Both the position numbers and the translations under genes were made by a program. A stretch of 64,000 nucleotides of DNA from Apiospora phragmitis (taxonomy: Eukaryota; Ascomycota; Sordariomycetes; Amphisphaeriales; Apiosporaceae), in assembly GCA_038363925.1 (NCBI GenBank), contig JAQQWL010000018.1, forward strand, positions 806,001 to 870,000, written 5' to 3'. How positions within the stretch are numbered: position 1 is the first letter of the stretch; the number at the start of each line of letters is the position of its first letter. The notes beneath the pieces were generated by a model, which worked only from the letters and a program-made list of their open reading frames with translations, did not search any database and was not told the DNA's origin. Positions 12,704-62,581 of this stretch are shown here, piece by piece.

Positions 12704-15480
12704 ACTGCAGCACTTGGAGATCTCGACAAGCTACCAGTGCTAGCCTAGCACGGACGTTCTACATTGGTATGGGGAGAAACTGTGGGACCTGCCGCAGAAT
12801 TGTCGGTAGAATATCGAAAATAAAAGTATACTGCCTGCATTGACGGTTGATCTTCATAATTGTGACCAGAAGCTATTTGGCTCAGGTGCCAAAAGGGCAT
12901 GAATGCTAGACGTTGGAAGAAGCGAGTTAAGGGGGTGGCTCCTACGTCAGCCCCAGGGAGAAAGTGGCTGTGCTACATGGGGCCGGGCTTCTAGTTCAAT
13001 TACAGGCAGAGCGGCACATGCTTTGGCTAGAAAATGACGCGTGTAGCATACGCTTGGTGATTGACAACATGACCGCCATCCGATACAGCATGGCAGCAAG
13101 CACAACTGGTGCGGGGACAAGCTCATGACAACTGTTACCAAGAATACCGGTTGAGGTGACCGTCGCTTATGTGTGCAAGAGAGACGACAGCATAGCGACA
13201 CGGTTAGCGACACGATTGTTATTCACTGTTTTGAATGCTCAAAGAACCCCGAAGCACGCCGGCACACAATGACTCCTTAGGCCAGCGAGACCCAGTCCCC
13301 ACGGGACCAGCGTGATAGACATTGCCAGACCGACCTGCATGCATCGTGCGATAGACGCATCCCACCGACGATTCTCCAACCCACAGCCGAGCAGCGTTGC
13401 ATGATCCATAGCGAAAAGAGTCGGCGAGGCTACAAAAGGCCAGTGCATTGGCAGAGGCAGAGGAATGGAGCACCGGCGGTCAGCGCATACTATGCCAGGG
13501 GAGGCAACGCGATTCCGCGCCATGGGCCATCGTGTCTGCGAATGGCCTAACCCACTCCGACATCCAATATCCTCTTGCGAAGCCTTACACCTGATCGAAA
13601 AAGGTGTCGCCCAAGGGATCGGCGTCGGCCACGGGGACGAATCGCTCAAACAGGGCTTTCACCTGCGACAACCACCCCGTGAGCCTTTGCGTTTGCTGCA
13701 GGAACCTGTACTTATGTCAGTTGACAATTTGCGTCAGACTGAATACGCGGTGACTTACAGCTGTTCGACCTTCTGTGTGCTGTTCGGGTGCCTGTGGTTA
13801 GATGTATACCTCGGTGCGACGGCGGTGGAGACCTACAAAGTCGTGAAGCTGGCAAGACGTGGGCGTGCGTGAGTAGGAGAACTCTGCTGTACGAGGGCGG
13901 GGATAGACTTACTTTTCGTTGTGGTGGGCCAGCTGAGACTGGACGGTGTTGACCTTGTCCAGCAGCTCACCCACCTTGTCCAGCAGTCCTTGGGTGTCGC
14001 CCGACGTTCTTCGTTCTCAGTACAACGCGCTGACTGGATGTGGAGGGACCTACGGTAGCGGCGAGCTGAAAGGGCTCGACTCGAGGCCTTCTTGGTCGAA
14101 GAAGTTAGGAACGTCTGGAAAGGACAGTGGTTGTTGGCTCGGAGGCTGGAGCTGCGTGGCAGAAGGAGCGACAGTCTTGGGCGCAGACGCAGGTGCGGGT
14201 GCAGATGCGCGCGCGGTGGTGGCGTGGCCTGCTGATGGTCGGCCCTGCCGTGGCTGGCGCGGACGCTGCGCACCGTATCGCTGTGAAGGGAGCATGTCGG
14301 CGTGGATGGAAGTGACAGATAAATAGAGGAAGTTACAGGTGAAGGAAAGCAAGGTGGACGAAGGATGATGGAATATGCAACTCACTGAGAGCCTTGACCC
14401 CAAAACTGGTATTTCTGTGGCCCAATTCGTGCGGTGCTGTAATGAAGCAGCAAGCATGGATGCGAGCCCTGCACAGTTTGGTGGCTAGGCTGGCAGGCGC
14501 GGAGTTGGGCCTTCCAGTTGGGAAGTACTGATCCATAGCCTGCACTTATGGGCAGAGCGAATTCCTGGACGGAACACGACTTGTGAAGCATAACCATGCG
14601 AGAGCCGATTGGCAGCATTCAACCCAGCAGACGTGGCGAGGGTCGAAGTGAGTTGCACCGAAAGCGGCCGACAGCATGTGATTTCGGATCCTTGGCCTAT
14701 TCGTGAGCAAGCAGCTCATCTGCAGCTGCCGTCAGTCCGGACTCTACGTGTGGAATGTACCACCGTGTTTTGGCGTGGATTCTGGCTCAGGGCAATTCGG
14801 CGTCCTACGGTCCTCCATTCGACAGCCAGATCAGCAGAACGAGGTCGGCCAGGGCTAGGATCAAGTTCTGGATTGGCTGCTCCCCACCCCTGAACTGCTC
14901 TAGCAGCGCATCCGCCCCCGCGCGTGAACAGCCCTTTCGGTGCTGCTTCTGGCCCGCCCATTCAGACGCTGGATGGTTTCGGCGCGCCACTGACAGTCCC
15001 GTTCCTGAGCCAGTCTAGATGCCTGCAGAATTGCATGGGCGACATTGTGACCAAGGACCGGAAAGGGCGCGTGAGGATGTCCATGGAGAGGCGACGCAGT
15101 AAGGTCTCGCATCGTCGTGGACCAGTTCTGGGGTGCGTCCATTCTGGCGAACGTCCATTCTGGTGGACTTCCATTCTGGTGTGCGTCAATACGACTTTTC
15201 GGCCTGCTCAGAGCCAACCGCAGTCGTTTCGACCCCAGATGAACACAGGCAGACATTGCACTGGCGAACGAGCACGAGCGGTTTTGGCGGCGGCATGTCC
15301 ACCGCAGTACGCCTTGACGAGTACGTGTTGCCAAACCACATGGATCTATGCAGTCCGTGCTACAATACGAGAGCGAGTGACCGCCCGGGTTTCTTTCAGC
15401 AGTCGACCTCGGAGCACTCGGTAAAGATAGGGCACGAACTCGGCCAACAAACAGGCTAGGTCCGTCCATTTGAATGTGCA
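12665..15480 (-). repeat. Microexon-family unit, copy A (long)
   Basis: Read on the minus strand, 13200-15480 aligns with the plus-strand unit at 61080-63215, and its 5' part (about 14050-15240) aligns with 58620-59756. The 3' flank 12665-13240 aligns with 47481-48265 as well. The unit holds one complete microexon-family gene plus about 1 kb of conserved upstream DNA with an ATTCTGG-containing short repeat. No terminal repeats or target duplication were found. Confidence 0.8.
13585..14295 (-). CDS. Microexon-family protein, copy A (167 aa)
   Basis: There are five exons on the minus strand: 14054-14295, 13913-14008, 13837-13848 (12 nt), 13759-13791 and 13585-13705. The introns are 45, 64, 45 and 53 bp, with donors GTAGGT, GTAAGT, GTAGGT and GTAAGT. 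All junctions keep phase 2, and the joined frame is open to TAA. Exon 1 encodes a basic, Pro/Ala/Gln-rich low-complexity region, then LSFPDVPNFFDQEGLESS. Exon 2 is heptad-rich (LLDKVGELLDKVNTVQSQLA). Exon 5 encodes LTGWLSQVKALFERFVPVAD and ends FFDQV. A short coiled-coil protein with a disordered N-terminus is implied; the family and function are unknown to me. Copies at 15588-16210 and 61888-62581 share the same five-exon design, and 59599 holds a truncated one. Confidence 0.8.
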
Positions 15481-15587
15481 TGATATCTATCCTGAACCCA
15501 ATCCCTAAATCACCAGCACACAGCCATCTCTGGCAAGCTAAATGGTAACACCGTATGAACCTAGTCCTTGTGTAGTATAATTTATTG

Positions 15588-16210
15588 TTACACCTCGTCT
15601 GAGACGTCGTGTGCGCCGCCCGGTGCGATAACTTCCAGGATCATCCTCTTCGTTTGCGACAGGCAGCCCATGAACCTACGTGTCTGCTGTTGGACTCTAG
15701 ATGCCGGTCAGACTTCCGTTTCCCTAGGCCTACGCGCTCATGACTTACAGTTCCTGGTATGTTTTCTTGCTGCCGAAGGCCAACGTCAGACCCGTTCATC
15801 AATATCAACAAGTCCAGAAAACTTACAAGTGTTCTATCCTAGTTAGCTGTCAGTCGTTGTCGCTGCTTCTTGTGGAATCGTGAGTTTAGGTCCACTTACT
15901 CTCCAGTATGGCTCCTAAGCTCTGACAAAATGTCATCTAACTTTCGGTTCAGCACCTCAAGTTTGCATTCCAGCATCTCCAGCTGGCCTGCTCTGGACTA
16001 GCGTTAATGTACTTGATCGGCTCAAAACGGGCGAAGAGCTCACGCGGACGGCAGACTCGATCCGAGTATGCCTTGGTTTGGGTGGAAACCCGCATGTGGT
16101 GGAGCATGAGTTGGAGGGAAGGTGTGACCTGGCGTAGTGGTGTGTACCGCAGCTCCCCAAAGCGGCAGTAGCCCAGGCTGATTCGACATCTCGTACGAAG
16201 AGGAAAACAT
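15588..16210 (-). CDS. Microexon-family protein, divergent copy D (133 aa)
   Basis: Exons on the minus strand: 16044-16210, 15900-15992, 15827-15838 (12 nt), 15749-15769 and 15588-15696. The introns are 51, 61, 57 and 52 bp, with donors GTGAGC, GTAAGT, GTAAGT and GTAAGT. Splice phases are identical to copies A and C, and the joined frame is open. Exon 1 (MFSSSYEMSNQPGLLPLWG) does not obviously align with the other copies. Exon 2 keeps the heptads (LEVLNRKLDDILSELRSHT), and exon 5 keeps the motif as VQQQTRRFMGCLSQTK and ends SDEV where the others end FDQV. It lies head-to-tail upstream of copy A on the same strand. The ATG at 16210 is preferred over the in-frame ATG at 16378 because a TATAAAAG lies between them. 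Confidence 0.75.
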
Positions 16211-16328
16211 GTCGCTGCCTCGAATGGAATCGCTGTGCGGATGTGAAACGATCGGGAGAGTATCGATGGTCTTAGGATTGCGTAGAGTCAATGATTGTAC
16301 GTAGCAGTTCGCTGAACCCCTATGTGGG

Positions 16329-16336
16329 CTTTTATA
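16329..16336 (-). promoter_or_regulatory. TATA box of microexon gene copy D
   Basis: TATAAAAG on the minus strand, 119 bp upstream of the ATG at 16210. TATA-like motifs sit at similar distances before copies B and C. Confidence 0.55.
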
Positions 16337-18296: not shown

Positions 18297-18470
18297 TTTT
18301 TTCCTGCTTTCGTGTTTACCATAATCAAGTTGATTGACTGGCACTGTCAGGCCGTCACACTCGAAGTCGTCCGGAAGAAGTCCATCTGAATCTAATGACC
18401 TTGGCGGAGGTCATTGGGAGACGACAGTTGTCTCTGTAGCCTGTAGTCTCTGTAGTCGCTTGGTGGCTCA
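18297..18470 (+). repeat. Dispersed repeat, about 170 bp
   Basis: This stretch aligns with 47890-48050 in the same orientation. Shared blocks include CTGCTTTCGTGTTTACC, TTGATTGACTG, GCCGTCACACTCGAAGTC and CTAATGACCTTGGCGGAGGT. At the second site it lies inside the 3' flank of a microexon-family unit, as an insertion relative to copy A. Confidence 0.8.
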
Positions 18471-18853
18471 TAGCCGTGACCGAGCCACCATGAACAAAGA
18501 CGCAAGCCGCTTCAAGATGATTGTACCGTGCCCGACCTGTGCTACTCACTGCTTCGCACCATCTCAGCGTCGGGGTCGTCTCTACCTGCCATTCCAGGAA
18601 TAGCGGGCCTTCCTGGAAGTCGGTGTCTACCGTGGCAGCTAGGAGCGACCTATGTCGCGAAGAGCCTGAGGGTTGAATCCGCCCACTCGGCCAGACAAGC
18701 TGAACGGGAGCCGACAGTCGCAAGAGTTTGACAAAGGATTTTTCTGGTGTAAGCTAGTTCAGTCCTTACGACATACCCAGCGTTCGAGGGCAGCCGAAAT
18801 GCATCTGGCCGTACTGGGGCGAGTACGCCTGTTATTTCCGCGTTCCATCTATC

Positions 18854-21800
18854 ATGCGGTGTATTCAAGAGCGATTTCGCTCATGGAAAATAAACGGGCT
18901 TTTGGATTCATATTTGTTGGAGGTCATCGATGTTACTGCTGGTCTGCCTCTGAACTCGGTTTCGGGCCCCTCTCTTCAGATGCCTGCTACATTGCCACCC
19001 TTATCCAAGACCAACCTTGAGCGGCCGTTCTTGACGAGCGACGAGCTTTTCCAACAAGCAGCCCCCTCGTTTTCGTGTAAAGAGGCGGAACAGTTCCAAG
19101 ATTTGTTTCGCCAGGAGATAGGGCAGAGATCCGATGCTCATGACGATACCATGGGGGTCAGCAAGTCTGTCGATGCGTTGGTGGCTGCATTACGGTCTCG
19201 AGCGATGCGGCGTTACGAAACAGACTACGTACATGAGCTCGAGACGAGCTTTTCCAGCTATCTAGCTGCGTGTACTGCAGAGAGCAATGCCAAACTCGTC
19301 CATGATCGCCCAGAGCTCGAGGCGAAGCTCCGCGAACACGCCCGCGCTTGCGCGGCCCAGGTCGATGAGATGCAGCGCTCGATATATAGTCATCTCCGCG
19401 GCACTTTCATCGCTGAATTCCCGGGTTCAGCCCATTGCCTTCCCAGGCTCAGCCCAATCTTCATTGTGCAGCAGCTGAACAGGCACAATTGGTCATCGAT
19501 CCCCGAGGCCTGGAAAACCTGCATCGAACAATACGCACTCTCGATAAGCCACTATCAACGCGCTGGGAGGTTGTTGAGCGCGATAGACAACCCTATCGAG
19601 TTCGCGAAGGAAGTCGAAAACGTAGGCCACGCTTGGAAGCTCCGCGAGTATCCCGAGTCATTGCTTTTGGAGGTCGAGAGTGGTCTCATCATCCGGGATG
19701 TCCAAGAGGAGGTGGCTTCCTCGATGCGCGGATGCTCCGAAAATCGGGTGATGCAGCTCAATATGGGCGAGGGAAAGTCCTCGGTCATCGTACAAATTGT
19801 CGCTGCCTACCTTGCTAACGGGGATCGGCTGGTACGCGTCATTGTCGCGAAGCCCCAATCAAAGCAAATGCGGCACATGCTGGTGACGAAGATAGGCGGC
19901 CTTCTGGACCGTCGCGTCTTCTTTCCTTCCATTTTCTCGCTCTTTCGTGATGGACTCGGAGAAACTCCAGCAAATCCAGAACCATATTGAGGCTTGCAAA
20001 CAGTCCGGTGGAATACTCCTAGTGCAGCCCGAACAGTTGCTATCTTTCAAGCTCATGGGGCTCGAATATGTCGGTTCCCCGGCCTTTTTGCCGAACTCGA
20101 CAAACCTTGGAATTGGTCGGGGATTGATACAATCCCAGAAGTATCTAGAGACTCATTCGCGAGATATCATCGATGAGAGCGACGAGAACTTCAGCGTCAA
20201 GTTTGAGTTGATCTATACAATCGGACTTCAACGTCCCGTGGAGATGAGCCCCGACCGGTGGATTGTTATACAGCAGGTTCTTGAAATGATCTGGAGACTC
20301 GCCCCTGACTTTGCCAAGGAACATCCCGAGGGCTTTGAGCTGCATTCCAAAGGCTCATGTCACTTCCCAAGGCTCAGATTTCTGAATGACGGCCCCGGGA
20401 GCTTGCTGTTAAAGTCTGTTGCTCGTTATATATGCGACAAGGGACTGTATAGATTTCCCATCGCTCATCAAAACCCAGAGACACGGCAACGGGTATATGA
20501 GTACATTACCGAACCAGACTTGACCGGAGACCCGGTCGGATTTGTTGAAGAAAACAAGGGTGGCTTCTTCTGCGACACGACGGCAGACATCCTGTTGCTT
20601 CTTAGAGGCTTGTTCTCCTGCGGTGTCCTTGCCTTCGTCTTTGGCCAGAAGCGTTGGCGAGTCAATTACGGTCGGGCGGAGCGCGCACCCCCCACGCAAC
20701 TGGCAGTGCCCTATCGCGCGAAAGATTCGCCAGCACCTCGGTCGGAGTTCAGCCACCCCGATGTGGTTATCATTTTGACGCAGCTTTCATACTACTACCA
20801 AGGGTTATCAGACGAAGAGATGCTCACAGCTTTCCAGCAGCTTGAACGTCTGGATCAAAAGTCGACGGTATACGGAGAGTGGGTGGACAGGTCACCCAAA
20901 CTTCCTTCATCGTATCGACAGTTTTCCGCCGTGAACTTGAAGGACTGGAGTCAATGTACCCGCCAACTGTTCCCAGCTCTACGGTACACCAAATCCGTCA
21001 TCGATTTCTATCTTGGGAAAGTGGTATTTCCCCATGAAATGGTTGAGTTTCCTCAAAAGCTCTCTGCGTCAGGCTGGGACCTAGCCAAGCCCCGGGCCCA
21101 AGCCGTGACTGGTTTTAGTGGCACATGCGATTCCAAGTATGTGCTCCCTACGGACATACCGCATAATGACCTACCGAGTCAACTGCACACGAATGCAAAG
21201 GTTTTAGACTACATACTACGGTCTGAGAACCTTGTGGTGGAGCTAGGTCCCAGTATCGATGGGGATCTACTACTCAGAAGTGTGGCTAGCGCTCAGCCGC
21301 CGATAGATGTCGTACTCGACGTGGGTGCATTGATCATAGATATGGACAATCGCCAATTTGCCCAGAGATGGCTTGAGCTGAGCACGGGAAGCTTGGAGAA
21401 GAAGCAGGCCGTGATTTTTGTGACTGAAGACGATGAAATCATGGTTATAGATCGGACTGGTTTCGCGGAGCCTTTCCTCACATCTTCATTTGTGGACAAC
21501 ACAGAATCCTGTCTGGTCTATCTCGACGAAGCACATACACGCGGCATCGACTTGAAATTGCCAGACCACTATAGGGCCTGCACGACACTAGGACCTAAGC
21601 TCACGAAGGACCGGCTCGTACAAGGTAAGCTTGATCAGATATACGCCTAGGAGGACCTCTTTCCGGATTTGCCGCAGCTCTTGGCTAATTAATTATACTT
21701 TGCAGCCTGTATGAGAATGAGGAAACTGGGAAAGGGCCAGTCAATCACCTTCTTCGTTCCCAGAGAGATCCAAGAGAAGATCAGGTTGAGTAGAACTGCG

Positions 21801-23004
21801 GGCGGAGATGGGCGGCCTATCACTGTTTTGGACGTCCTACTATGGTCAATCTCCGATACGTGGTCCGATACCTACAAGAGCATACCACTCTGGGCGACAC
21901 AGGGCCTGCGACACCAGCGTCAGGAGGCCATTTGGGCGGAAATGACCAAAACCGGTGGTAGGGACCTTTGTAGTGGTGATATCGCAGACTACTTCGAGGA
22001 CGAAGCCATAAGCTTGAAAGAACGATACGGCCCGAGGTCTTGTACTACAAGCCAGGCCCTCCTTGCTAGCCACTCCACTCATCCACCACCCGCAGGGCGA
22101 CAGAAGCAAATCGATTTGATTCGAACGAAGTGCGAGCAGTTCGGTATCGAAACGTTTGGCTCTGCGATATTGCAGGAAGAACAAGAGCGCGAGCTCGCTC
22201 CCGAGATCGAGCAAGAACGCCAGGTTCAGCACCCCCAGCCTCTCAACCCAGCGAAACACCAGCTGCATCCCGATTTACGCAGGCTGGTCAGAACTGGCTC
22301 GCCGAACCTCTCGGGCGCCGCATTCGCGTCGGCTTTTACCGCTTTCAAAAAAAAACTGCAGCGCGGCTTCATTGGTGAACCTCGACGAATTTCACGGCAA
22401 ACTCTTAGTCACCAGCGATTTCGCCCGAACATTGAGCCCTGCGGAGACATCCAAGTCAGACGCGTTTCAAAGACCGGTGCAGTGGATTCTGACCACTAAA
22501 GAGTTGCCAAGGGGGGTCTACTTGATCGTCCTCAGCCCTTTCGAGGCCAACCTGCTTCTACCTATCATCAAGGACAGCCCCCACGTCAGGTTGCATGTGT
22601 ACGCCCCTCGCACCAATCTGTCGTTCCCTTGCCTGCAAAATCTCAAACTGTACATGACCCCTGCGCTTCCCACCAGCTGGAGTGTTCCCTACACAGTGAT
22701 TCAGCAACTAAACCTTTTCTCCGGGCAGCTCTACTTTCAGGACCTGCAGGAGTACCAGGAGTTGTGCGCATACCTGGGCCTGTCGTGCACCGGTAACGAT
22801 GGAACCACCGCAGTAGCAGTGGATGGCTTTATCGGCAAGTGCGCCCGGTATCCTCTATGCCAGTTTACTCGAAGTCCCAATGCTTTTCTTCAATTCATCA
22901 TGGCGAATGTGCGACGCGACCGCCAAGATATCAGTCGCACGCATATCGGACGGATGTTGACGGGTGAGATCCTGGTAGAGGATGATTTCTCGTCTTCGGT
23001 ATAG
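18854..23004 (+). pseudogene. DUF3638/DUF3645 giant-protein gene, C-terminal part, frameshifted
   Basis: The homologues are fungal proteins of roughly 3,000 residues with DUF3638 and DUF3645 and a nucleotide-binding-like loop. Here only the C-terminal 1,350 or so codons are present. Landmarks in order: MQLNMGEGKSSVIVQIVAAY (Walker-A-like), ILLVQPEQLLSFKLMGLE, YRQFSAVNLKDWSQC, LSASGWDLAKP, TGFSGTCDSKYVLP and LVYLDEAHTRGIDLKLP. An intron at 21625-21705 (GTAAGC donor, TTTGCAG acceptor) correctly joins LVQ to ACMRMRKLGKGQS. Two single-base lesions break the frame: one extra C near 19925, and a shift in a run of nine A at 22347-22355. The C-terminus is otherwise complete to 23004. The N-terminal half is missing. 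Nonsense changes are absent, so decay is recent or the lesions are assembly errors. Confidence 0.85.
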
Positions 23005-25020: not shown

Positions 25021-25806
25021 TGAGCCAAAGCTAAAGAAGCCTGCTAAATCTTCAACCTACAATGCCGTACAAGACTTGCACGAAGACTGGCACGCTTGTG
25101 CATATGCCCCGTCCTAACCACCCAATACCCAGAACATGAGTTTGACTGCCCCATGAACAGCTTGCAAGAGCGGGCATCCACCATATCTGCCTGTCCAATC
25201 TAGTACAACCCGTGCTGCTGTGTCATGCCAAAAAGAGTGCGCAATATTCGCCGTGATAGGAGTGTCCTTGCTAACCACAGAATCCGCGATAACGAGCAAA
25301 CCGCTCAACATCGGCGCCGCTGTCGGATTGTACGCTGGCTAAGGAATTACAAGAAGGGAATAGTCGATTGGCGGTTTCTGCGAGCGGAAACTCATCATCG
25401 AAGCAACCCCAGGAGGCGTCCTTACTTTCACTAAAAATGCTGTCCAACTTAGCGCTACGCCAGGTTTCAAAACCCCCCGTAGAAACAAACGATCCACCAA
25501 CGCCTGAAGGCGCGACGTGGCACTGGACACGGACACAGTGAGCCGGCGGAAAATGGTTGGTTGGGGCAACTGTCGAGCACAATGACAAACCACACATTAG
25601 CAGATAACCAACATCGCAAAGTAGCTTATACACAACGCTGGGTCTTTCTGGGCCATGTCAATGGCCTTGGAACTCGACCATTTATACCACCCATCACGTC
25701 GATATCCTGGGCTCAAGCTCATTCCGGGCTCCTTCTTCGCGCGTGCACTTCGGTGCTGGACTTGATAGTAACATCCTCATGAGCGCGAGTTGCTGCTCCG
25801 GACCGC
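25021..25806. other. Intergenic, with one dispersed repeat
   Basis: No gene is supported. Positions about 25438-25560 match 32695-32830 in inverted orientation. Confidence 0.45.
25438..25560 (-). repeat. Dispersed inverted repeat, copy 1
   Basis: The reverse complement shares CTCACTGTGTCC and GAAACCTGGCGTAGCGCTA with 32695-32830 at matching spacing. Confidence 0.65.
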
Positions 25807-28054
25807 ATGCGCTCGATGACAAACACCAGTTACACATTACTGACGTCGATTGACGTTGACCCGACGACAGACCGACCAAACAAACAGCAAATTGGGGCCG
25901 CCCGGGCATCGAGAAGTTGTGTGAGTGTGTGTACCTACGGACGGTATGGCACACCCACCTATTTGAGATTTGCACCAAAAAAACAGGCTAGGTTAAATCC
26001 CACAGGCCTTTGCTTTACTTACAATGATGACCTGCAGTATTTCGTTTTACCCTTACGGCCCCCGCATCCACGGTATCCAACTAGGCAAAGCATGACTCAG
26101 TATTATCGTCTTGCCGAGGAGGCAAAAGCCCTGTCGTCCATTTCTAGTAGAATTACTTGCAAACCCTACGGAAATACACCGTCAACCCCAATTTCTAAAA
26201 GACGCTTAGAGGGTACCCCACACTCCTTCCCATCAGACTCCCACCACAACCAAATCCGAGGACTGCTTGCTGCAAAAACATCATCAAGAGCCGTGGTGAG
26301 CCCGTCTGATCGTACACTTGGATTAGCAAATCGATCTTTCATATGTGCACCGGGAAGCCTCCGTGCGCAAACTGAAGAAACTTGCGATGGCGGTCAAGAA
26401 AGCCCCATTCCCAATTGTGGTAAAGACCCGCCCCCAGCTTCTCCCGAGAACGGGCTTGGTAGCCGCGCTGTGGAGAAAGCCTTGGTTAAACGTCTGCCTT
26501 TACTTCGGTCTCCATCACCGGAGCCGGTCCTTTGTCCTGAGCAGGCCGCTTTGGTGGACCTTATCTGCGCTGGATATAATGTCTTCTATACAGGATCTGC
26601 TGGATGCGGGAAATCTACGGTTCTAAAGGCCTTCACCAAGCGCCTAAAAGAGATGGGAAAGAAGGTGCATGTTCTCGCCCCAACTGGCCGTGCTGCTTTG
26701 CAGGTCAACGGAACTACCACATAGACATATGCAGGGTGGACGCCAGATTCTCATAAGAAACCCCTAGAAGAACTTCAGAAAAGGCGCATGGCAAGTTCGT
26801 GTGGAAGCGATTCAGCAAAACCGATGTACTGGTTATTGATGAGATCAGCATGGTCGAAAACTTACATTTTGAAAGGCTGAATAAAGTGATGCAGGACGCA
26901 CTTTATGATCCGAGCTTGACTGCTTAGAAGGCATTCGGAGGCGTTCAAATCGTTGTGACTGGAGACTTCTGCCAGCTACCACCAGTTCGACCCTTCCAAT
27001 ACTGTATGGAATGCGGTAAAGAGCTCGTTCAAAGTTATTATAGGGGGGAACTGTCCTATTCATACCCGATCCCTCACCACCCCATCTGGCACGACGAGGA
27101 CAAGTGGGCGTTCGCTAACGTAGCATAGAAGCAGTGCGATTTTGTTCATGTTAACCTCAAGACCATCCACCGTCAAAACGATCCTACGTTTATCCGTATA
27201 TTAAACAAATGTCGAATCGGTGAAGCGCTTACTGAGAGCGATAAGCGGTTCTTAATGGATTACCCTGCGAAACACGCCACGCGACCAAACTCTTCGCCAC
27301 TCGTGATGAGGTTGCATTGGTGAATCAACAGCAGTTCGAAAAGCTCAAAGCCGTCAAGCATACCTACTGGGCTCGCGATACGTTCAGGTGGCAGAAGAAG
27401 AGGCATCCACTCTTGAGTCACAAAGCCATTCGAAAAGCCGTTAGGCCCGATAGCCATCAGCCCCTCTCGGCTCTGAATGATCACCGGTTCTACCAATGTG
27501 TTGAGCTCAAGAAGGGCATGCTGGTGGTGCTCCTAACAAATCTCGACTTGCGTCTCGGACTCTGCAACGGCAGCCAGGGCATCATCTGTGGCTTTGTAAC
27601 GTATGAGAAAGACAAATTGCCCGCCGTATACGGTGAATACGTCCACGTGAAGGAAAGCGGGATCAAATCTTACATTGAAGGGCCCGGCGCCGAATCCAAA
27701 GTGTGGCCCGTTGTCAGGTTCCACAACGGTATCCGACGGGTCATCCACGCTGAGTGCTCCATCAACGAGCTGGGTGATGAAAAGCCGTATTCGCTGTTAT
27801 CGCGGACACAGATTCCCCTGGCGCCGGCATGGGCCATGACGATTCACAAGAGCCAGGGCCTAACCCTGAATCGCGTCATCGTCAACCTATCAAAGGCTTT
27901 CGAGGTTGGTCAGGTCTATGTGGCGCTGTCTCGAGTCACCGAGCTCGAGGGACTTAAGGTCGAGGGAGACGTTGCAGGGCTAGAGGCAGGAATAGAAGGG
28001 GATAGGAGGGTCCAGCGGTTCCTGAGGGAGCGTTTTGGCTCCTCGACTGGGTGA
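25807..28054 (+). pseudogene. PIF1-like DNA helicase, inactivated
   Basis: The polar N-terminal region runs from the ATG at 25807. The helicase core then follows: the Walker A loop FYTGSAGCGKSTVLKAFTKR, HVLAPTGRAALQVNG, then VLVIDEISMVENLHF, VVTGDFCQLPPV, VNLKTIHRQNDPTFI, and near the C-terminus AWAMTIHKSQGLTLNRV and VYVALSRVTELEGLKVEG. These are PIF1 family motifs (5'-3' helicase, telomere and replication maintenance; also the helicase half of Helitrons). Lesions: stop codons at 26722 (W to stop), 26925 (Q to stop) and 27126 (W to stop), and frameshifts near 26780 and 27285. All three stops are explained by single C-to-T or G-to-A transitions in a CpA context, as in RIP. No HUH/Rep domain is seen, so there is no direct evidence for a Helitron. 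Confidence 0.85.
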
Positions 28055-30559: not shown

Positions 30560-31262
30560 TGCGTATGAGATAGTATAACTATGGGAATTGATGGTAAGCC
30601 CACGCTGTTAATGGCGATCGTTGTGGCGCGTAGGTATGGGTTTAGAAACGTAGTATAGCTTGCCCGGCTGTTGAATGATCAATGCTTAATCTTCTAGAAG
30701 GTTAGAGAGCAGAAGAAAGACGCTGACTTCCTGAACACATACCTGCACACATTTGCCAGAACGCGTCAAGAGGCGAGACCATTAAAATCCTCGGGGACAA
30801 CGGCATATGGAGAATTCTGGCATGGGCTGCAGCATGCGATGGTTGGTCCGCGAGACATAGTTTGGCAGAAGCGATAGGAAATGACGAAGGAAATGAGAGA
30901 TGTAAGAAGGTGACGGAGAAGGGGGGGATCTAGGTTGGTCAGAGCGCTAGCATTTGCATTTCAACCCCACAATGAGGCCTCACATCGCTAGCGCAACAGT
31001 CCTGCGGGCACCAGCTGCCTGCTACCAGCTGCATTAGTTGTCGCTTATCTAGGCTAATAATATTATTCCGGATGGCAAGCTCTATGATACTGTCTGGTTT
31101 TACGGTACTGTAGTAATATGAACTTTTGAGTTTGTAAATCAGTATGTACTCTATGTACTGATACGATGGGAACGTTGTGGAGTACCCACTGTGGCTTTCG
31201 ATTCGCGAAACTTTGGAGTTCGGAAGTAGATGCAGTTTACCCTTTCTGTCCGTTCGCATTGC
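30560..31262. other. Promoter side of the kinase-like gene; no gene
   Basis: This lies upstream of the minus-strand gene. No TATA motif is convincing and no other coding signal was found. Confidence 0.45.
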
Positions 31263-33412: not shown

Positions 33413-33418
33413 GAGAAG

Positions 33419-48265: not shown

Positions 48266-48294
48266 ATTCCGAGAACTGTACAAGTGCTACTTCT

Positions 48295-53103: not shown

Positions 53104-53212
53104 GACCTAGCAAAAATCGGTGGAACTTTTTAATTTATCTTTGCTCAATTATTTATTATTCCATTACTGAGAGGGGAGTTGGATAAAAAGGCGGCGGGTG
53201 CCCAACGAGACA

Positions 53213-54431
53213 ATGGAGGACCGTGCAGAGATGGAGATCGTGGTGGACGCGCCAAACTCTATCGCGACGTCGGTCAAACGAGCAAAGCGGGCGAAGCCCA
53301 GCGCCAAAGCACGAGAGGCGCTACTCTCGAATGAAGGCGACAATGGAGCAGAGACAAGCTCGAGCAACAATGGAGTCATCGGACCGGAGATGCTGCAGCG
53401 CATCTACGAGCTTGTGGCCAGCTCCCAGAACGAGATCCACGATTCCCGCACCGAGATCCGAGACCTGAAAGAGATCATCAACAACCAGCAGGCAATCATC
53501 CAGCGGCTCACCGCCGAGCTTCAAAATGTCACCCAGCAATTGGAAGAACTCAAGAACGGCGCAGCCCTCGCCGGCAGCGCCCAGACGAGCCCTCAGGCCT
53601 CCTACGCGCAAGTCGCACGCACGCCCCCGACGAGCCAGCCGAGCAACGTACGCACGCTTACCTCGATGAACACGACACCCTCCACGTTTACCGATACCTT
53701 GTACTGCACCATCGACACATCCAGAATGGAGGACGACAAACGGGCGGCTGTGACCGCCGGAACGGTTCGAGCCGCTGTCGAGAAGGAGATGCGAGCGACG
53801 GGAGAACAGAAGGACTGGCGATGCCGCGCCGTGACCATGGACCCCAGGAAGCCCCAACGCATCAAGATTGTCTGCCGAGATGAGACTGAGCACCGACTAG
53901 TCAAGCAAGCCGCCGAGAAGACGAACGCGTCAGGAGCTCGCGTCCTGCGAGACGAACTATACCCGATCAAGGTGGACAGCGTCAGGCGCACAGCAGTCCT
54001 CAACGAAAACGACGAGGTCCGAGACGGAGCGGCCGAGGCATTCGGACAAGAGAACGAGACGACAGTCGCCAAGGTGGCATGGCTGAGCCGGAAAGACAAC
54101 GGGAAGGCATACGGTTCCATGGTCGTCTACCTGACGAAGGCGGCCGAGGCGCGGAAGTTCCTCGAGGAAGGTTTCTTTCACGCCGGAGGCGAGTCAGGCT
54201 ACACGAGGGTCTTCGAGCGACGAGAGCGGCCGGAGACAGTGCTACAACTGCCAGCAGGTGGGACACAAGGCATTCCAGTGCAAAAATGCCCGGACCTGCG
54301 GGCGATGCGCGAAGCAGGGACACAGCCACCACGGCTGCGAGGCAACCGTTCTAAAGTGCGTCCCGTGCGGAGGACCACACGAGTCGTTTAGCCGACACTG
54401 TCCGAAGCTATACCCATCGAACCATGACTAG
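53213..54431 (+). pseudogene. LINE ORF1 (Gag-like, zinc knuckles)
   Basis: From the ATG at 53213: a basic start, a coiled coil (EIRDLKEIINNQQAIIQRLT), an RRM-like middle and then CCHC zinc knuckles. The knuckles CYNCQQVGHKAFQC, CGRCAKQGHSHHGC and CVPCGGPHESFSRHC are in a different frame from the first 340 codons, so one frameshift lies near 54235. In the zinc-knuckle frame the ORF ends with TAG at 54429-54431, overlapping the ORF2 start ATG at 54424 within ATGACTAG. That overlap suits stop-restart translation as used by several LINEs. Confidence 0.8.
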
Positions 54432-56109
54432 ACCGTTCCGCATTATTCAAAACAATGTGAGGAAGCAAGGACCCGTACACGACGGCCTCCTCAACGATGA
54501 AGATGTACAGCACGCGACAGTAATTTCGATTCAAGAGCCTCACGCGAGGATGGCTCAGGGGCGGCTCCTGACGACACCGATGGGACACCATAGGTGGGTC
54601 AAGATGGTTCCGCCAGTTCGGAGAGAAGGGAGGTGGCCGATCCGGAGCATGCTCTGGGTCAGCAAGGAGGTGGAAGCGGAACAGGTCCCGGTCGAGTCCC
54701 CAGACATCACCGCAGCAGTCGTGCGGCTGCCGGAACATGCGGTCTTTGTGGCGTCCGTTTACGTCCCTGTGGAGGATCCCCCCGCGCTCCAAGAAGCGTG
54801 CAGAAAGCTGCGCATTGCTCTTGAGGCAGTGAGAAGGAAGACGGGGGCAGCAGTAGAGGTGGTTATCACGGGGGACTTCAACCGGCATGACCAGCTCTGG
54901 GGCGGAGAGGAGGTACGGCTGGAAAAGCAAGGAGAGGCGGATCCGATTATTCATTTCATGGCCGAATTCGGCCTCAACAGTCTGCTCCCGGGGTACGAAA
55001 ACGTGGAGTGGAGGAGCCTATAGCACGACCATGGACCTCGTCCTCGCATCGGAAGAGATGAAAGATTCGTTAGTCAAGTGCAGGGTGCTCGACACGGAAC
55101 ATGGGTCGGACCACCGGACCATCGAGACAGTCTTCGAGACGCCCATACCCCCCCAAGGGGCCAAGAACGACTCCTCTTCAAAAACGCCCCGTGGAAGGAC
55201 ATCAACACCCGGATCGCAGCGGCATTGGCTACGACGCCCACGGGCGGCACGGTCCAACAACAGACTGACCGGCTGATGGGAGTCGTCCTGGAAGCAGTGC
55301 ACGCACTGACGCCCAAAGCCAAGCCATCGCCGTACGCGAAACGATGGTGGACAACGGACCTAACACAACTCCGGCGCTTTCACACGTACTGGAGAAACCG
55401 AGCCCGGGCCGAGAGGAGGGCAGGATGCACCAGGAGCGACCTAGATGTAACGGCGAAAGGTCCCGCAAAACAGTACCACGATGCCATCCGGCAGCAAAAG
55501 AAGAAGCACTGGAACGAGTTCCTCGCCGACAACGACAACATCTGGAAGGCAGCAAAATACCTCAAAGCGGGCGACGACACGGCATTTGGAAAAGTCCCCC
55601 AACTCGTGCGGGCAGGTGGGACGAGCACCTCCAACCATACGGAGCAGGCGGAAGAACTGCTTACCAAGTTCTTTCCTCCGCTTCCGGGCGAGATTGCCGA
55701 CGAAGGGGACCGCCCGCAGAGGGCGCCCATCGAGATGCGCGCTATCACGATGGAAGAGATAGAACGACAGCTGTTCGCAGCCAAGTCCTGGAAAGCACCC
55801 GGGGAGGACGGCCTGCCGGTAGCTGTCTGGAAGGAAGTGTGGCCGGTGGTCAAGCAACGGGTGTTAACGCTGTTTCGTACGTCGTTGGAGGAAGGAAAGC
55901 TACCAACCCAATGGCGCCATGCGAAGATCATACCGCTCAAAAAGCCGGGTAAAGAAGACTATACTATAGCGAAAGCCTGGCGGCCGATCTCGCTACTGTT
56001 TACACTCGGAAAGGTGATGGAGTCCGTCATTGCGGAAAGGATTTTTTATTTAGTTGAGACGTTCGGGCTCCTTCCAACCAACCACTTCGGCGCCCGGAAA
56101 CGGAGGTGA
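54424..56109 (+). pseudogene. LINE ORF2 (endonuclease, truncated RT)
   Basis: The endonuclease domain has IIQNNVRKQG, ISIQEPHARM, VVITGDFNRHDQLWGG and, in a second frame, [13 protein letters not shown], so the metal-binding Glu, Asp-x-Asn and Ser-Asp-His are present. Frame changes lie near 55010 and 55170. Then follow [20 protein letters not shown] and the RT start [59 protein letters not shown] and [13 protein letters not shown]. The frame stops there. Palm motifs (including YADD), and any RNase H, are missing, so the copy is dead. Confidence 0.85.
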
Positions 56110-56519
56110 GCAGAACATGCGGATGGCGCCATAATGCGAAATAACCGTACTCAGTCAGGTTTGGGCTAAGGAGCTTGTTTAGAAGGAAGCATGCTTCCGT
56201 ACGGAGGCGACAATTTGGCCAGAGCTAAGACTTAGAAGACGCTATATTAGGCAGCTCAATTAACGGCTTATTAGATCCCGATAAGTTAGCTACATGACAT
56301 TTTAGTGTCGCATTGGGGCTGATGTGTCTACTAGTGAATGCAGTAGGACTCATAGCACCGAAAGTGTCGCCCGGCCTGAGTTTCTGGCTAATTATACTGT
56401 ACTCACACACACACACGCACACTTTTATTACGCCCGGGCTAAGCCCTAAAGGGCAACTATCGCTTGTAATTACATGAACTTTTCCACGCTTCTGTCAGCA
56501 CTCCTTAAGGCCCTTACTC
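56110..56519. other. No gene; short (CA)n tract
   Basis: A (CA)n run lies at about 56402-56420. The sequence right after the LINE is unrelated to LINE 3' regions known to me. Confidence 0.5.
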
Positions 56520-56696
56520 AGACTGTCGCTAGCGAAACCAGCGTCCTCTTTCCACTCTTTGATAGTTTCCGTGTTAGACCCTTTTGCAGGGGTAGCTGCT
56601 GACGCCATGTAATTACCCCGCCATGTTTGCAAGTACAGAGCTAATTTCTGCCTTTGATTCCCCTTCTCTGGTACATCCATAAATCGATTATTATCC
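56520..56696 (+). repeat. Third copy of the 165-bp repeat
   Basis: This matches both tandem units at 35062-35392 (GTCGCTAGCGAAACCAGCGT, AGGGGTAGCTGCTGACG, CATCCATAAATCGATTA). It ends about 40 bp before the ATG at 56739, so it may be the promoter or leader of that gene family. Confidence 0.85.
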
Positions 56697-56738
56697 GAAA
56701 TATTCCTGTTAAATTTCACTTGATCTCTGTACATCGTT

Positions 56739-58078
56739 ATGGAGGCTATTGAAATCCCTGCTGAAGTGTTTAACAGGCGGCTTCGTATTGATGATCTCGA
56801 GAGACAGCTGCACTTAGTGGACCCGCACATGCAGACCTCATCATCACAGCCTAAAGGACCACTGCCCCTTGAATTGCGACATACCCAACCCATTAAACAT
56901 ACCAACAAGGATTCGCCCATGCAAACACAGAATTTAGAGGAGAGACGGAACAGTCCCGAATCAAAACCCCCTTCAAGCTTGCGCGAACGCAGAAAGAAAC
57001 CCATCGGAAACTTTCCTTTCACCACAGGAGCTGATTATCTGGGTAGTCAGGAACAACAAGGCCAGGGAGCGAGTGGGGAAATCAGTCCCTCGCTATCGGC
57101 ACATGGTCTCCGCAAAAGTGAACTTGTGGAGGTATTGAAGTCTTTAACGGACACCGATGCTTCAATACTCCTGCTTTGCTGGGGTGAAGCGAGTTACTGC
57201 CAAATCCTCCCTGTCCACATTCGCGACTCGAAAGACGCGTCAGCCCAGTGGGGCGACGTTCAAAGAGCTTGGCAGAAACACAAAACAAGCTGGAGATCGT
57301 GGCTACCATTGTACGGAGTGAAGATGGTGACAGTCGTCAAGGTTGCTTTGAGTTTGCTGAAACCGAATCATAACCCTTTGCTAACCACCAGCCTAGGTCA
57401 CAATAGCCAGCCAAATGCCAGGGCCGAGGCATAACAGCCCGGATCTGCCAACTTTCGTTGGGATGTACAGACCCGAAAACGTGGAGACCGAGATTTCTCA
57501 CCTGGAAGGACTGGGTCAGTACTACAAGAATGAAAACTACGAGTGCGACCTAGACAGATCAAACGGCGTATGGAATCATGACAATGCCTGCCCCTCAACC
57601 GCTGGTGAGAGCGGGCCTGGCTGGACTTGTGGGTACGAAGATCACCTGAAAGGCTGGCGGCATTTATTGCGCCTCCAGAGACGCCCGTTTCTCAAAACCA
57701 TGTTCTGCAATCCAGAGCTTGCGGCGTGGTACGAAACAATGGAGGAGCAAGACTTTCTCCTAAATCACTGGTGGGTAAAAACGCTATATACAGGGCTTCG
57801 TGGGATCAGTCACTAACACAACCAAGGAACTTATTTTCCCAGTTGGAGAAATTTCATCGCCCAAACCTCGGGGATCTGTCGTTCCTGGTCTTATCCAAGA
57901 AGGCTGGCTATTCGCCCGGCCCATGCTGACCTTGGTACTCTTGGCCAGTGCGGTCTTGTGTCTTTCTGTTCTCGCAGCTTGGTTGGTCTATAATGATTGG
58001 GCAGTCGCTTGGCAGGTTGGAGGATGCTTCCTCGCGGTTGTCACTTTTGTCTGTGGGTGCATCGATCGAGCTGTGTAG
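56739..58078 (+). pseudogene. Membrane-protein family gene, frameshifted
   Basis: The frame from 56739 (MEAIEIPAEVFNRRLRIDD) has a low-complexity region and then a conserved domain: ASILLLCWGEASYCQILPVH, AWQKHKTSWRSWLPLYGVK. An intron at about 57391-57431 leads to PDLPTFVGMYRPENVETEIS and later CGYEDHLKGWRHLLRLQRRP. Near 57775 the reading must change (a putative intron would be only about 20 bp) to FVGSVTNTTKELIFPVGEIS and PGLIQEGWLFARPMLTLVLL. Two membrane helices close the protein (LLASAVLCLSVLAAWLV and WQVGGCFLAVVTFVCGCI), ending at 58078. This family is widespread in ascomycetes with unknown function. The frame change means the copy is either decayed or mis-sequenced. Confidence 0.55.
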
Positions 58079-58619
58079 TTGAAGACCCATGCATATTGGC
58101 TCGCTGCAGGAGGTCTTGTACTTATCGCCTGGCGACTGATCTTCGCATAGTATGACCTCTCTTGCTTACTATATGGCCGTGATTCTTCATCCTTGCAAAA
58201 AGATGAAGCAGCAGGGATGACCTTTGGGCCCCGCTTCCATGTTGCCAGACCGATCAATGAAAGGATAGTCTTAACAAAAGGCTACGCAAGTTCTGGCAAG
58301 CAGACTACGCTAACCGGTGCGTCCATGCCATGGCAATGTGAAAGCATAGCTGATTTTATTATTAACAGGGATTTACCGCAAGAGGAGACTACTGCAGACG
58401 GCTTCGGCCTCGAAGAGCTCGACTTTGTAAGCCGGAGAATTGCATACTCTCAGAAAAGGGTCATCCATGAGGTGGAACCCGACCAAGCATCAAGTTCTAG
58501 CGGTGTGAAACGGCCTTGTCGTCGTCCGAATGGGAAAATAACACGAAAGTTACCCCCTGTGGAAGATGAGTTGTCTCGGTATCTAGCCGAACCACCATGC
58601 CTAATCTACCGGCGTGCAT
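58079..58619. other. No supported gene
   Basis: An open frame at 58193-58622 (plus) lacks domains and runs straight into the repeat unit, so it is probably fortuitous. Confidence 0.4.
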
Positions 58620-58722
58620 CTGGGGTCGAAATGACTGCGGTTGGTGTTGAGCAGGCCAAAAAGTCGTATTGGCAACACCGGAATTGGCGACACCAGAATG
58701 GACGCACGCCAAGATGGGCGTA

Positions 58723-58785
58723 CGCCAGAATGAAGTCCGCCAGAATGGAGTCCGCCAGAATGGAGTTCGCCAGAATGGACGTTCA
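58723..58785 (+). repeat. 15-bp minisatellite
   Basis: About four units of GCCAGAATGGAGTCC and close variants in tandem. The same word occurs as spaced single units in the inverted copy A (ATTCTGG near 15137, 15157 and 15174), so the array expanded in copy B. Confidence 0.75.
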
Positions 58786-59478
58786 CCTGGACGGAGTTCA
58801 TCAAACTGGACGCACCCGGAACTGGCCCACGAGCATGCACGGCCTTGCTGCTTCGTCTCTCCTTCAAGGTCTTGAACACCTCACGAGCTGTTCCCGGCCC
58901 TTGGTCACAATGTCGCCCATGCAATCCTGCAGGCATCTAGACAGGCTCAGGAACGGGACTGTCAGTGGCGCGCCGAAACCGTCCGGCGTCTAAATGGGCG
59001 GCCCAGAAGCAGCACCGAAAGGGCTGTTCACGCGCGAGGGCGGAAGCGGTGCTGGAGCAGTTCGGGGGTGGGGAGCAGCCAACCCAGAACTGGATCCCCC
59101 GGTCGACTCGTTCTGCTGATCTGCTTCTCGAGTGCAGGACCGTAGGACGGATAACGCCTGTGAGTCAGAATCCACGCCAGAACACGGTGCTACGTCCCAC
59201 ACGTAGAGTCCGGAACTGACGGCAGCGGCAGATGAGCCGCTTGCTCACGAGTAGGCCAAAATCCGTTACTCCTGGCCACTTTCGGTGCAGGTTCACTTCG
59301 GCCCTCCGCCACGTCTGCTCGGCGTCGGATGCTGCCAACTCGGCTCTCGCATGGTTATGCTTCACAAGTCGTGCTTCGTCCAGAACTTCGCCTCCGCACC
59401 TGACAGCCCAACCTACCAATCGTGCTGGGCTGGCATCCATGTTTGCTGCTTCATTACAGCACCGCACGAATTTGGCCA

Positions 59479-59487
59479 CATAAATAC
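59479..59487 (+). promoter_or_regulatory. TATA-like box of copy B
   Basis: ACATAAATA at the position matching CATATAAATA in copy C and the degraded ACAGAAATA in copy A. Confidence 0.4.
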
Positions 59488-59598
59488 CACTTATGGGGTC
59501 GAGGCTCCGTCAGTGAGTTGCAGATTCCATTATCGTTCGTCGCCTTGCTCCTATCCACCTGTAACTTCCTGTATTCACCGGCGCTTCCATCTACCGGC

Positions 59599-59765
59599 AT
59601 GTTCCCTTCACAGCGACACGGTATGCAGCGTCCGCGCCAGCCACGGCAGGGCCGACCATCAGCAGGCCACGCCACCACTGCGCCCGCGACTGCACCCGCA
59701 ACTGCGTCTGCGCCCAAGACCGTCGCTCCTTCTGCAACGCAGCTCCAGCCTCCAGATCTGTATTG
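59599..59765 (+). pseudogene. Microexon-family copy B, truncated exon 1
   Basis: Starts MFPSQRHGMQRPRQPRQGRP and continues in the Pro/Ala/Thr-rich region to ATQLQPP, then meets a stop after LY. Exons 2-5 are missing. The truncation coincides with the end of unit homology. Confidence 0.75.
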
Positions 59766-61079
59766 ACTCAGTCTCTCCTTCAGCCCATCGTCGATCAAGT
59801 GCTGGACTAAGCCACGATGCGGCAGAAAGGGGACCACATCTCACCCTACGTGGCCATTAGCGTCACGGTGTGGGCTACGTCGGGGGCGGTGAAGGTCATG
59901 ATGGGGTTACCTGTGTGATCGGCAATTTTCTGGTCGAGGCAGACGATGATTTAAACCGGCGGCGCCATTAGCAGCTCTACATCCTAAGGTCTACATCTAC
60001 CTTACCGCAGATTAGCCAGCCAACACTCTGTACGTCAGACAGGACACATCAGAAAGAGTACATAAGATGCCCCTGATCCGAATGCAGAGCTTGCCGAGGT
60101 ACCCTAGAACGGCTACGAAGAAGCGCTTCCTGCTCGAAAGTCTAGTACATATCGCAGGATGGACTGCATATACTGTATAACCCCGCTGCTTTGGCTTGTT
60201 GCCATGGAATGTGGTGAGCTCAAGTCTAGTGAATGTGACCTCGTTAGGGGAGCGGCTGATCTGGTTCTCAACTCCATCTAGGCCGGAGAGATGCCTTCTG
60301 TAGCTTGTGCATCTTGCTGACCTGCATGCCAAAAAGGATGTGTACAGTCCAGCACCCACGACTGCGAAGAAACACTCCCTGGCCGAGAAATCTCTAGCTT
60401 CGCAAAATGACCTACTGTTCTGTACCGCTCTCTTTGACGTGTGTACCACGACGCGAAGCCAGGCGTGTCCGAGGTCACGTCAGGTAGCATGGGTATGAAA
60501 CAGTCGTAGGAAGTACGCTTTAGAGCTGAAGGATACGTGTAGGTACGGACCGGAAGGGCACAACTGGAGCTATGAGGTATGGTGAGCGAATATTACTTTG
60601 AGTACTCCAGAGGAGCCACTTTACTAGGTCATGGCTCGAATTTTAGCCGTGCATTTCTCAGGAGATTGTACCAGGGCCAAAAGGGTGAATAGTGACCCAA
60701 GCTGCCAGGAGGCACTCCTCGCTTCAAAGTGCCAAGCAATTAACAATCACCAAAACTAGAAGAGTAATCACCAGTTGCTTGGTTGCCACTTAGAAGCGGA
60801 ATAGTCCTTGCATGCGTGACCAGGACATGCCCCAGTCACGTATCCCTTGAGAGGGAACCTTTCCGGCCATACGAGCCAACAACCAACTAGAGACGAGCTT
60901 CGTCTGAATGCTTCAATTCGGGTCCATCGCGCCAAGGTCAGTTGGAATGCTACCACGCCGACCCTGGTCGGAACAAGAGTGGCATGCTGGTGCTGGACGC
61001 GAGATTGAGATCCAGGTGGTCGGAATCCAATCAGCGGCCGTCACGGCCATGCCTGCATCCGGCAACGGTCACTCTACGT
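59757..61079. other. No supported gene
   Basis: Frames around 60012-60490 are open on the minus strand but have no domain or splice support. No repeat shared with the rest of the window was noticed. Confidence 0.4.
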
Positions 61080-61783
61080 GCTGCGGGGTATGGCTCTGCA
61101 CTGTAAGAGAAAACCAGCAAAGCAACCTCAAAGCGTCATCCCCCCTGCTCAATTGTTCATCATCCTAGTCTGCTGTTGTCGTGCTTCCACATTCTTGGTG
61201 AGGCCGGGGAATGGAAGTCGCATTCTAGTCAACTGGACTAGCTCCTACCCTGTCGAAAGGGGCTGTTCACGCGCTGGGGGCGGAAGCGGTGCTGGGACGG
61301 ATCGGGTTCGGGGGAGCAGTAGTGCCAATCCAGAACCTGACCCTAGCCTCGGTCGACCTCGTTTTGCTGATCTGGCTCTCGAACGGAGGACCGTAGGACG
61401 GATAGTGCCTTCGATTCAAAATTCACGCATGCGGTGGTACCTCCAACGCATAGAGAGTCCGGAGCTGACGGCAGCTATACATGAGCTGCTTGCTCAAGAG
61501 AAGCGTCAAAGATCCGGAATGATGTACTTCTGGGCGCATGGTGCAGACACACTTCAGCGCCTCCGCTCAACGTCTGCTCTCAGTCCGATGCTGCCAACTC
61601 GACTCTTCCACCACATGGCTATGGCTGTAAGCCGTGCTTCATCCAGAGCTTCGCCTCTAGCCACAAGTGTAAGTTGATGATCAGTATCCCAACTGGAAAT
61701 CTCAGTCACTCGCCTGAAAGCCTAGCCTACAAAGGAGTCGTGCTAGCATCTATCCCTGCTGCTTCATGACAGGACTTTGGCCA

Positions 61784-61790
61784 TATAAAT
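61784..61790 (+). promoter_or_regulatory. TATA box of microexon gene copy C
   Basis: TATAAAT, 98 bp upstream of the ATG at 61888. Confidence 0.5.
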
Positions 61791-61887
61791 ACCAGCTGTG
61801 GAGCCAAGGCCTGTTCCATTACCCTCTGTCCGCGTTACCTTCATCCGCTACTTCTTCCATTCACCTGTCGCTTCCATCCACGCCGGC

Positions 61888-62581
61888 ATGCTCCCTTCGC
61901 AGCAACACGGTGCGCAGCGCCTGCGCCGGCGACCGCAAGGCCGAACTCCAGCAGGCCAAGCCGCCACTGCGCCTGCGCCCAGGACTATCGCTCCTGCGGC
62001 AGCGCAGCACCAGCCTCCGAACCAACCCCCACTGTCCTTTCCAGAAGTTCCCAACTTCTTCGGTGACCAAGAAGGCCTCGACTCGGGCTCTTTCAGCTCG
62101 CCACCACCGTAGGTCCCTCCCCACCGCCCCCGTTCATCCAGCTGAGAACGTAGGGCGTCGAGCGATACCCAAGAACTGCTGCGCGAGGTGGATGGGCTGA
62201 TGGACAAGTTCGACGCCATCTTGTCCGAGCTGACCCGCCACAACCAAGAGTGAGTCTACCCTCGCCCTCGTACTTCAGAGAACTCCGACTCACGCAATCC
62301 CACACGTTTCGCCAGATTCACGACTTTGTAGGTCTTCCACCCCATTGTAATGACGCCTTTATCTAACTCCAGGTGCCCGAACAGCAGACAGAAGGTCGAA
62401 CAGCTGTAAGTCACCGTATGATCAGTCAGGCGTAGATTGCTCTACTGATATCGACAACAGGCTCCTGCAGCAAACCCAAAAGCTCACGGGCTGGCTGTCG
62501 CAGGTGAAAGCCCTGTTTGAACAGTTCGTCCCTGTTGTCGACGCCGATCCCTTGGACGACGCGTTTTTCGATCAGGTGTAA
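61888..62581 (+). CDS. Microexon-family protein, copy C (160 aa)
   Basis: Exons 61888-62108, 62154-62249, 62316-62327 (12 nt), 62373-62405 and 62461-62581. The introns are 45, 66, 45 and 55 bp, with donors GTAGGT, GTGAGT, GTAGGT and GTAAGT. Every junction is phase 2, and the joined frame is open to TAA. Exon 1 is basic and Pro/Ala/Gln-rich, ending near LSFPEVPNFFGDQEGLDSGS. Exon 2 is a heptad helix (ELLREVDGLMDKFDAILSEL). Exon 5 reads LTGWLSQVKALFEQFVPVVD and ends FFDQV. Exon lengths 2-5 (96, 12, 33, 121 nt) are identical to copy A, although exon 1 differs in length by 21 nt (seven codons). The function is unknown. Confidence 0.8.

Follow-up and report, generated by a model that had tools for sequence, protein, structure and literature searches.

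In this work we analysed a window of 64,000 nucleotides from the fungus Apiospora phragmitis (Apiosporaceae), positions 806001-870000 of contig C17 (888,166 bp) in a genome of 52.67 Mb and 19 contigs, and we find that it carries three genes of one multicopy family whose third exon is exactly 12 nt long. Re-splicing from the DNA confirmed that the structures of these genes (copies A, C and D) are real at the coordinates given below, with five exons each, phase-2 junctions and spliced frames that run open in all three, as the initial annotation had proposed; the truncated fourth copy that it placed at 59599 was also found. The genes form an orphan multicopy family with an unusually neat microexon, probably on an accessory chromosome, and fall into two branches, encoding A-type proteins of 160-168 amino acids (AA) and D-type proteins of 131-133 AA. 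The reading that we favour, with moderate confidence, is that of a protein-coding Apiospora family whose members have a disordered N-terminus followed by a helical rod at the C-terminus, with two old branches and a microexon that is spliced in, carried by an accessory contig, C17, that is spared by repeat-induced point mutation (RIP). Microexons and RIP-free supernumerary chromosomes are already known in fungi. Very short coding exons that are conserved have hardly been documented in filamentous fungi, and with nine open copies in one genome, and the residues of the 12-nt exon also present in deposited proteins of further species, this family is a handy test bed for the recognition of very short exons by fungi and for gaps in annotation. 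The features are as follows.

13585..14295, minus strand: copy A (A-type, locus L001), based on splice sites, phase and open frame; 167 AA; exons 14295-14054, 14008-13913, 13848-13837 (12 nt), 13791-13759 and 13705-13585.
13837..13848, minus strand: third exon of copy A, 12 nt, CTTCACGACTTT, based on splice sites and conservation.
15588..16210, minus strand: copy D (D-type, locus L009), based on splicing and open frame; 133 AA; exons 16210-16044, 15992-15900, 15838-15827 (12 nt), 15769-15749 and 15696-15588.
15827..15838, minus strand: third exon of copy D, 12 nt, GATAGAACACTT.
61888..62581, plus strand: copy C (A-type, locus L007), coordinates derived from exon and intron lengths; 160 AA; exons 61888-62108, 62154-62249, 62316-62327 (12 nt), 62373-62405 and 62461-62581.
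62316..62327, plus strand: third exon of copy C, 12 nt, ATTCACGACTTT.
59599..59753, plus strand: truncated A-type copy, which retains just the first 155 nt of exon 1 together with about 1 kb of upstream sequence.

Exon lengths are 242/96/12/33/121 nt in copy A, 221/96/12/33/121 in copy C and 167/93/12/21/109 in copy D; A-type exon 1 measures 245 nt in two copies, and the other D-type genes have 158/96/12/21/109 (L010) and 164/96/12/21/109 (L011). In the open copies the introns are 45-66 nt long and all in phase 2, and the stop codon lies at the end of exon 5. The 12-nt exon is present in all nine open copies, so that the claim of a constant 12-nt exon in a multicopy family stands; it is bordered by YAG acceptors and by GTAGGT, GTAAGT or GTAGGG donors (in copies A, C and D by CAG or TAG on the 5' side and GTAGGT or GTAAGT on the 3' side), and can thus be regarded, on sequence grounds, as a microexon in the usual sense of a very short internal exon between splice sites. 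Most donors in the family read GTAAGT, GTAGGT or GTGAGT, the exceptions being L003 (GTAGGG and GCAAGT), intron 1 of L009 and L010 (GTGAGC), intron 2 of L010 and L011 (GTAAGC) and intron 4 of L011 (GTACGT). The first TAG acceptor for exon 2 of copy D was rejected, as it gives a frameshift; an open frame results only from the CAG acceptor lying 5 nt further on, and the corresponding acceptor gives an open frame in each of the three D-type loci. In the six open A-type copies, introns 3 and 4 contain a strict YTRAY branch motif, which was not found in introns 1 and 2. By eye, A-type genes have a TATA-like element, ATAAATA (AGAAATA in L001 and L003), about 100-125 nt 5' of the ATG, and D-type genes a TATTTATA/TATAAAA-like sequence about 120-140 nt 5' of it.

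Genome counts of large families are lower bounds here. The A-type DNA query gave at least 18 matches, 8 essentially full length and 10 partial, and two of the partial matches, at 233422-233850 and 233863-234078 of contig C6, form one nearly full locus within L021. This makes nine full or nearly full A-type loci, of which six are open (all on C17), two, L006 and L008 on contig C3, are RIP-mutated, with seven internal stops each and RIP composition, and one, on C6, is a pseudogene: its exon 1 contains a stop, exon 2 has lost 7 nt, and a further deletion has removed the microexon. The D-type query gave at least five matches: three full or nearly full loci, all open (two on C17, one on C6), and two fragments. 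Eight of the nine open copies thus lie on C17, and the remaining one is the D-type copy on C6. Beyond the known loci, translated searches (12 and 25 rows) yielded a single weak row, on C5 (E 0.75). The expansion concerned whole loci, as the initial annotation had suggested, including about 1 kb upstream of the gene, which it took for promoter: the alignment of copy A with L014 covers 2,838 columns, which begin 1,089 bp 5' of the ATG and end 921 bp beyond the stop, and the shared stretch is the following.

12664..15384, minus strand: stretch around copy A common to other A-type loci (83% with L014), comprising upstream region, gene and downstream region.

The bare pattern YAG-N12-GTRRG occurs 10 times in the 64 kb, twice with CTRAY upstream, so a single copy means little and the case for the exon rests on conservation. 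The six open A-type copies agree in 11 of 12 microexon columns, compared with 35/55 interior columns of intron 2 and 15/33 of intron 3, and none of 61 windows of 12 nt in these introns is as conserved as the microexon. In the three D-type copies 9 of 12 microexon columns are invariant, versus 36/62 and 30/62 in the flanking introns. The exon stands at the same place in both branches despite synonymous saturation between them (distances of 2.0-3.1 in 6 of 18 A-D pairs, undefined in the 12 others), and the A-type and D-type profiles match with an E-value of 6.3e-12. Alignment gaps in exons are all multiples of three (3 and 24 nt in A-type, 3 and 9 nt in D-type genes), and those in introns are mostly not (1-2 nt in A-type, 1-6 nt in D-type genes). 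The DNA-level view is limited to A. phragmitis, other species being compared as proteins, and the microexon residues are found in D-type proteins of A. kogelbergensis, A. aurea, A. marii and A. phragmitis. The closest precedent is Xlr2 of Trichoderma virens, a zinc-cluster transcription factor gene for which PMC11121469 describes a 20-nt microexon with glucose-dependent inclusion by RNA-seq, and a range of 3-30 nt for fungal microexons. In both filamentous ascomycetes an internal coding exon of very small size is conserved across species and absent from many gene models; the two cases differ in that the exon described here is 12 nt long, in frame, predicted from sequence and part of a multicopy orphan family.

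Selection was measured as omega, the ratio of nonsynonymous to synonymous substitution rates, by a codon model on the six open A-type and three open D-type copies, leaving out the RIP-mutated L006 and L008 and the pseudogene L021. Omega is 0.64 for the whole A-type gene (p=0.015) and falls to 0.46 (p=0.0023) in exons 2-5 and to 0.24 (p=9e-6) in exons 3-5, so that A-type exons 3-5 are under purifying selection. A-type exon 1 looks neutral (1.18, p=0.55), and for the D-type the departure from 1 is not significant (0.69, p=0.079; exons 2-5, 0.61, p=0.084). Constraint is thus established for the C-terminal part of the A-type; it is not shown for the N-terminus and falls short of significance in the D-type alone. 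The earlier suggestion that selection maintains the protein is therefore supported only for the A-type C-terminal exons.

These small proteins are probably of the coiled-coil type. The AlphaFold2 model of the D-type protein P0013 (11-sequence alignment; mean predicted local distance difference test score, pLDDT, 70.7; predicted template modelling score 0.32) has a disordered N-terminus and a single helix of 65 residues (58-122), with block means of pLDDT between 86 and 96 over residues 61-120, and the microexon residues IEHF (89-92) lie inside the modelled helix. For the D-type, this model bears out the predicted architecture of a disordered N-terminus and a helical C-terminus. Inspected by eye with a signal peptide of secreted effectors in mind, N-termini of the family look hydrophilic or proline-rich. 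A Pfam scan of five family proteins returned only coiled-coil-like matches, all below the cut-off, the best being Laminin_I (E 0.0074, P0014) and SKA1 (E 0.017, P0013). Profile matches to PDB chains were generic coiled coils, GCN4 fusions and trimeric adhesin stalks (best E 2.4e-5), which reflects the compositional resemblance of helical rods and does not indicate common descent. The idea that the microexon keeps the heptad in register was discarded: the hydrophobic face is offset across it by 103-123 degrees in all three D-type and by 131-135 degrees in four of six open A-type copies, and moment analysis gives a smaller offset once the microexon is removed. We therefore limit ourselves to proposing that it sets an offset. 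In the mechanism that we favour the 12-nt exon would normally be included in the mRNA, its four residues would fix the length and the rotational offset between two amphipathic halves, and the protein would oligomerise via the rod and might serve as a small scaffold or regulator.

The favoured reading also places the family on a chromosome that escapes RIP. The initial annotation described the genes as lying amid decayed DNA, which is wrong for this window: its composite RIP index is -0.40 and only 34 of 255 windows of 500 bp are positive. The index is negative at each of the 12 C17 loci analysed and positive at each of the four C3 loci (0.47 to 1.11). The end of the window offers a direct comparison.

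56477..63998, plus strand: segment duplicated on C3 (C3:215500-223023, locus L019), holding copy C and the truncated copy.

Over 7,516 aligned bases of this 7.5-kb duplicate there are 613 differences, of which, counted from the window to C3, 610 run in the RIP direction (362 G>A and 248 C>T) and 3 are others. The duplication is recent, and RIP hit the C3 side only, leaving the window copy untouched; one-sided RIP of a fresh duplication makes this a clean natural case in which to study how supernumerary chromosomes avoid RIP. A reverse-transcriptase search gave at least 153 matches, 150 of them listed (the best 150 of 264 candidates were scored), from which seven rows on C19 were excluded, as C19 may be mitochondrial (TGA stops). 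Among the matches listed, stops are found in none of four rows on C17 versus 135 of 139 elsewhere (Fisher p=4e-6), and judging by these stop-free rows C17 seems to be spared by RIP. C17 shows little RIP, which is present elsewhere, as expected of a RIP-free supernumerary chromosome. A weak control is that none of at least 113 listed mitochondrial-carrier matches lies on C17, about two being expected by length. If C17 is an accessory chromosome spared by RIP, whole loci could for this reason be duplicated on it and left intact. PMC4994206 reports the same contrast in Fusarium poae, where RIP acts on the core and not on the supernumerary genome, which holds intact transposable elements and gene duplications and from which blocks have moved to the core. 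F. poae differs in belonging to another fungal order, in that family loci on C6 and C16 are here not RIP-mutated either, and in that C17 is only putatively accessory.

Several observations weigh against this reading. The RIP index is also negative at the C6 loci (2/2) and at the C16 locus (1/1), so that little RIP is not unique to C17, and on C17 itself L023 has an index of just -0.07, with 16 of 39 windows positive. Acceptors are YAG save in A-type intron 1, which unusually has AAG in five of six open copies (TAG in copy C). The microexon residues are missing from the deposited A-type protein models P0001, P0002 and P0003, although RNA-seq was used for one A. arundinis annotation, from which P0002 may come. 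The structure predicted for P0001, in which exons 3-4 are missing, has a low confidence of 55.5 and two helices. The A-type helix may be broken. Finally, the omega values of exon 1 and of the D-type given above belong on the same side.

The deposited proteins bear most on the first alternative, in which the genes are real and the microexon is mostly skipped, the main product joining exon 2 to exon 4 or 5. Skipping exon 2, 3 or 4 keeps the frame because each is a multiple of three. Protein searches at E<=10 gave 12 and 19 proteins, 20 of them distinct, the second search scoring the 7,994 candidates that share most words. All 15 named homologues are from Apiospora (A. aurea, A. arundinis, A. saccharicola, A. 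marii, A. kogelbergensis and A. phragmitis); P0006, P0007, P0010, P0019 and P0020 come from JGI or ENA sources. Two models are built as expected from skipping, P0001, which joins exon 2 to exon 5, and P0017, which lacks exons 3 and 4, and P0002 is without the microexon residues. Nevertheless, these residues are included in four D-type models (P0013, P0014, P0015 and P0016), P0015 agreeing with the predicted splice of L011 from GLLPLWGAA on, and the 12 nt and their splice sites outdo the introns in conservation and are kept in both branches. We therefore regard predominant skipping as unlikely. P0018, the model of L010, reaches the microexon and stops in intron 3. The four D-type models also show that gene finders are not always blind to the microexon, contrary to the expectation that they would miss it and call only exon 1; for the A-type that expectation comes closer, since the residues are missing from P0001-P0003 and P0004 and P0005 go no further than exon 2, yet each of the five has exon 1 spliced to exon 2. 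The description of the family as undescribed remains appropriate: its proteins are deposited as hypothetical or uncharacterised, including PG994_015218 (C17) and PG994_006956 (C6; 5,690,558 bp) of A. phragmitis, and among the matches listed in the openly licensed literature we found no paper on the family and nothing on RIP or accessory chromosomes in Apiospora.

The copies might otherwise be young duplicates, mostly non-functional, whose frames survive only through youth and a contig that RIP spares. The low level of RIP on C17, the exon 1 omega and the D-type omega are what such duplicates would show. Yet the introns of open copies diverge by up to about 0.30 and no frameshift has appeared, exons 3-5 are constrained, and the C6 pseudogene shows what real decay looks like, so we consider this explanation improbable.

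A selfish family, acting as a drive or chromosome-retention factor of the accessory chromosome, would account for the concentration of open copies on C17, for named homologues confined to Apiospora and for a neutral exon 1 beside constrained exons 3-5. On the other hand, no drive phenotype is known, one open D-type copy sits on C6, and low RIP alone could explain the concentration on C17, which makes this explanation very unlikely. The likeness to the wtf meiotic drivers of fission yeast is that of a multicopy, fast-diversifying fungal family. wtf proteins are membrane proteins; the present proteins look hydrophilic and helical, and five of them gave no Pfam WTF match at E<=5. Equally speculative, and in our view a very long shot, is a scheme in which this genus-specific family ensures, by drive or as a segregation aid, that a RIP-exempt accessory chromosome persists in the population, with coiled-coil partner choice switched by including or skipping the four-residue microexon in the middle of the rod. 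It is highly improbable that the repeat unit represents a non-autonomous transposable element or the cargo of one: the copies are dispersed with upstream and downstream sequence and several matches of copy A end alike, at 15379-15384 and 12664-12670, but L014/L016 and L014/L020 align beyond both end points, so that fixed ends were rejected and the shared ends look like breakpoints of copy A rather than element ends, no search aimed at terminal repeats or target-site duplications having been made.

Some minor observations concern the family and its neighbours. At 13585-16210 of the window a D-type and an A-type gene share a strand, the D-type gene being the upstream one, and L026 has a D-type gene followed by an A-type upstream region without the A-type gene, which hints at an ancestral D-A gene pair. 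Minisatellites of 15/16 bp are found 5' of A-type copies (15126-15187 and 58723-58779), with similar ones in L026, the C6 D-type locus. In P0011 (A. arundinis) and P0012 (A. aurea) A-type exon-5 residues are joined to unrelated N-termini; these may be real fusions or annotation errors. By eye, the N-terminal region of a 761-codon open frame at 28322-30607 (minus strand) resembles that of P0012; this frame has no Pfam match at 1e-3. Elsewhere, the stretch 35695-38914 (minus strand) encodes an NB-ARC/TPR protein whose tandem repeats are nearly identical (126-bp unit, 92% matches) and adjoins a DUF676-like hydrolase open reading frame (ORF), the two probably forming one NLR-like gene. The window also contains a DUF3638/DUF3645 gene split over several frames, PIF1-like helicase, Tcp11-domain and cyclin-domain genes, and ORFs that by eye resemble a broken long interspersed nuclear element (one tested had no Pfam match); the coordinates of all these, listed jointly, are 18758-22499, 25783-28054, 41132-43093, 5898-6587 and 53171-56109.

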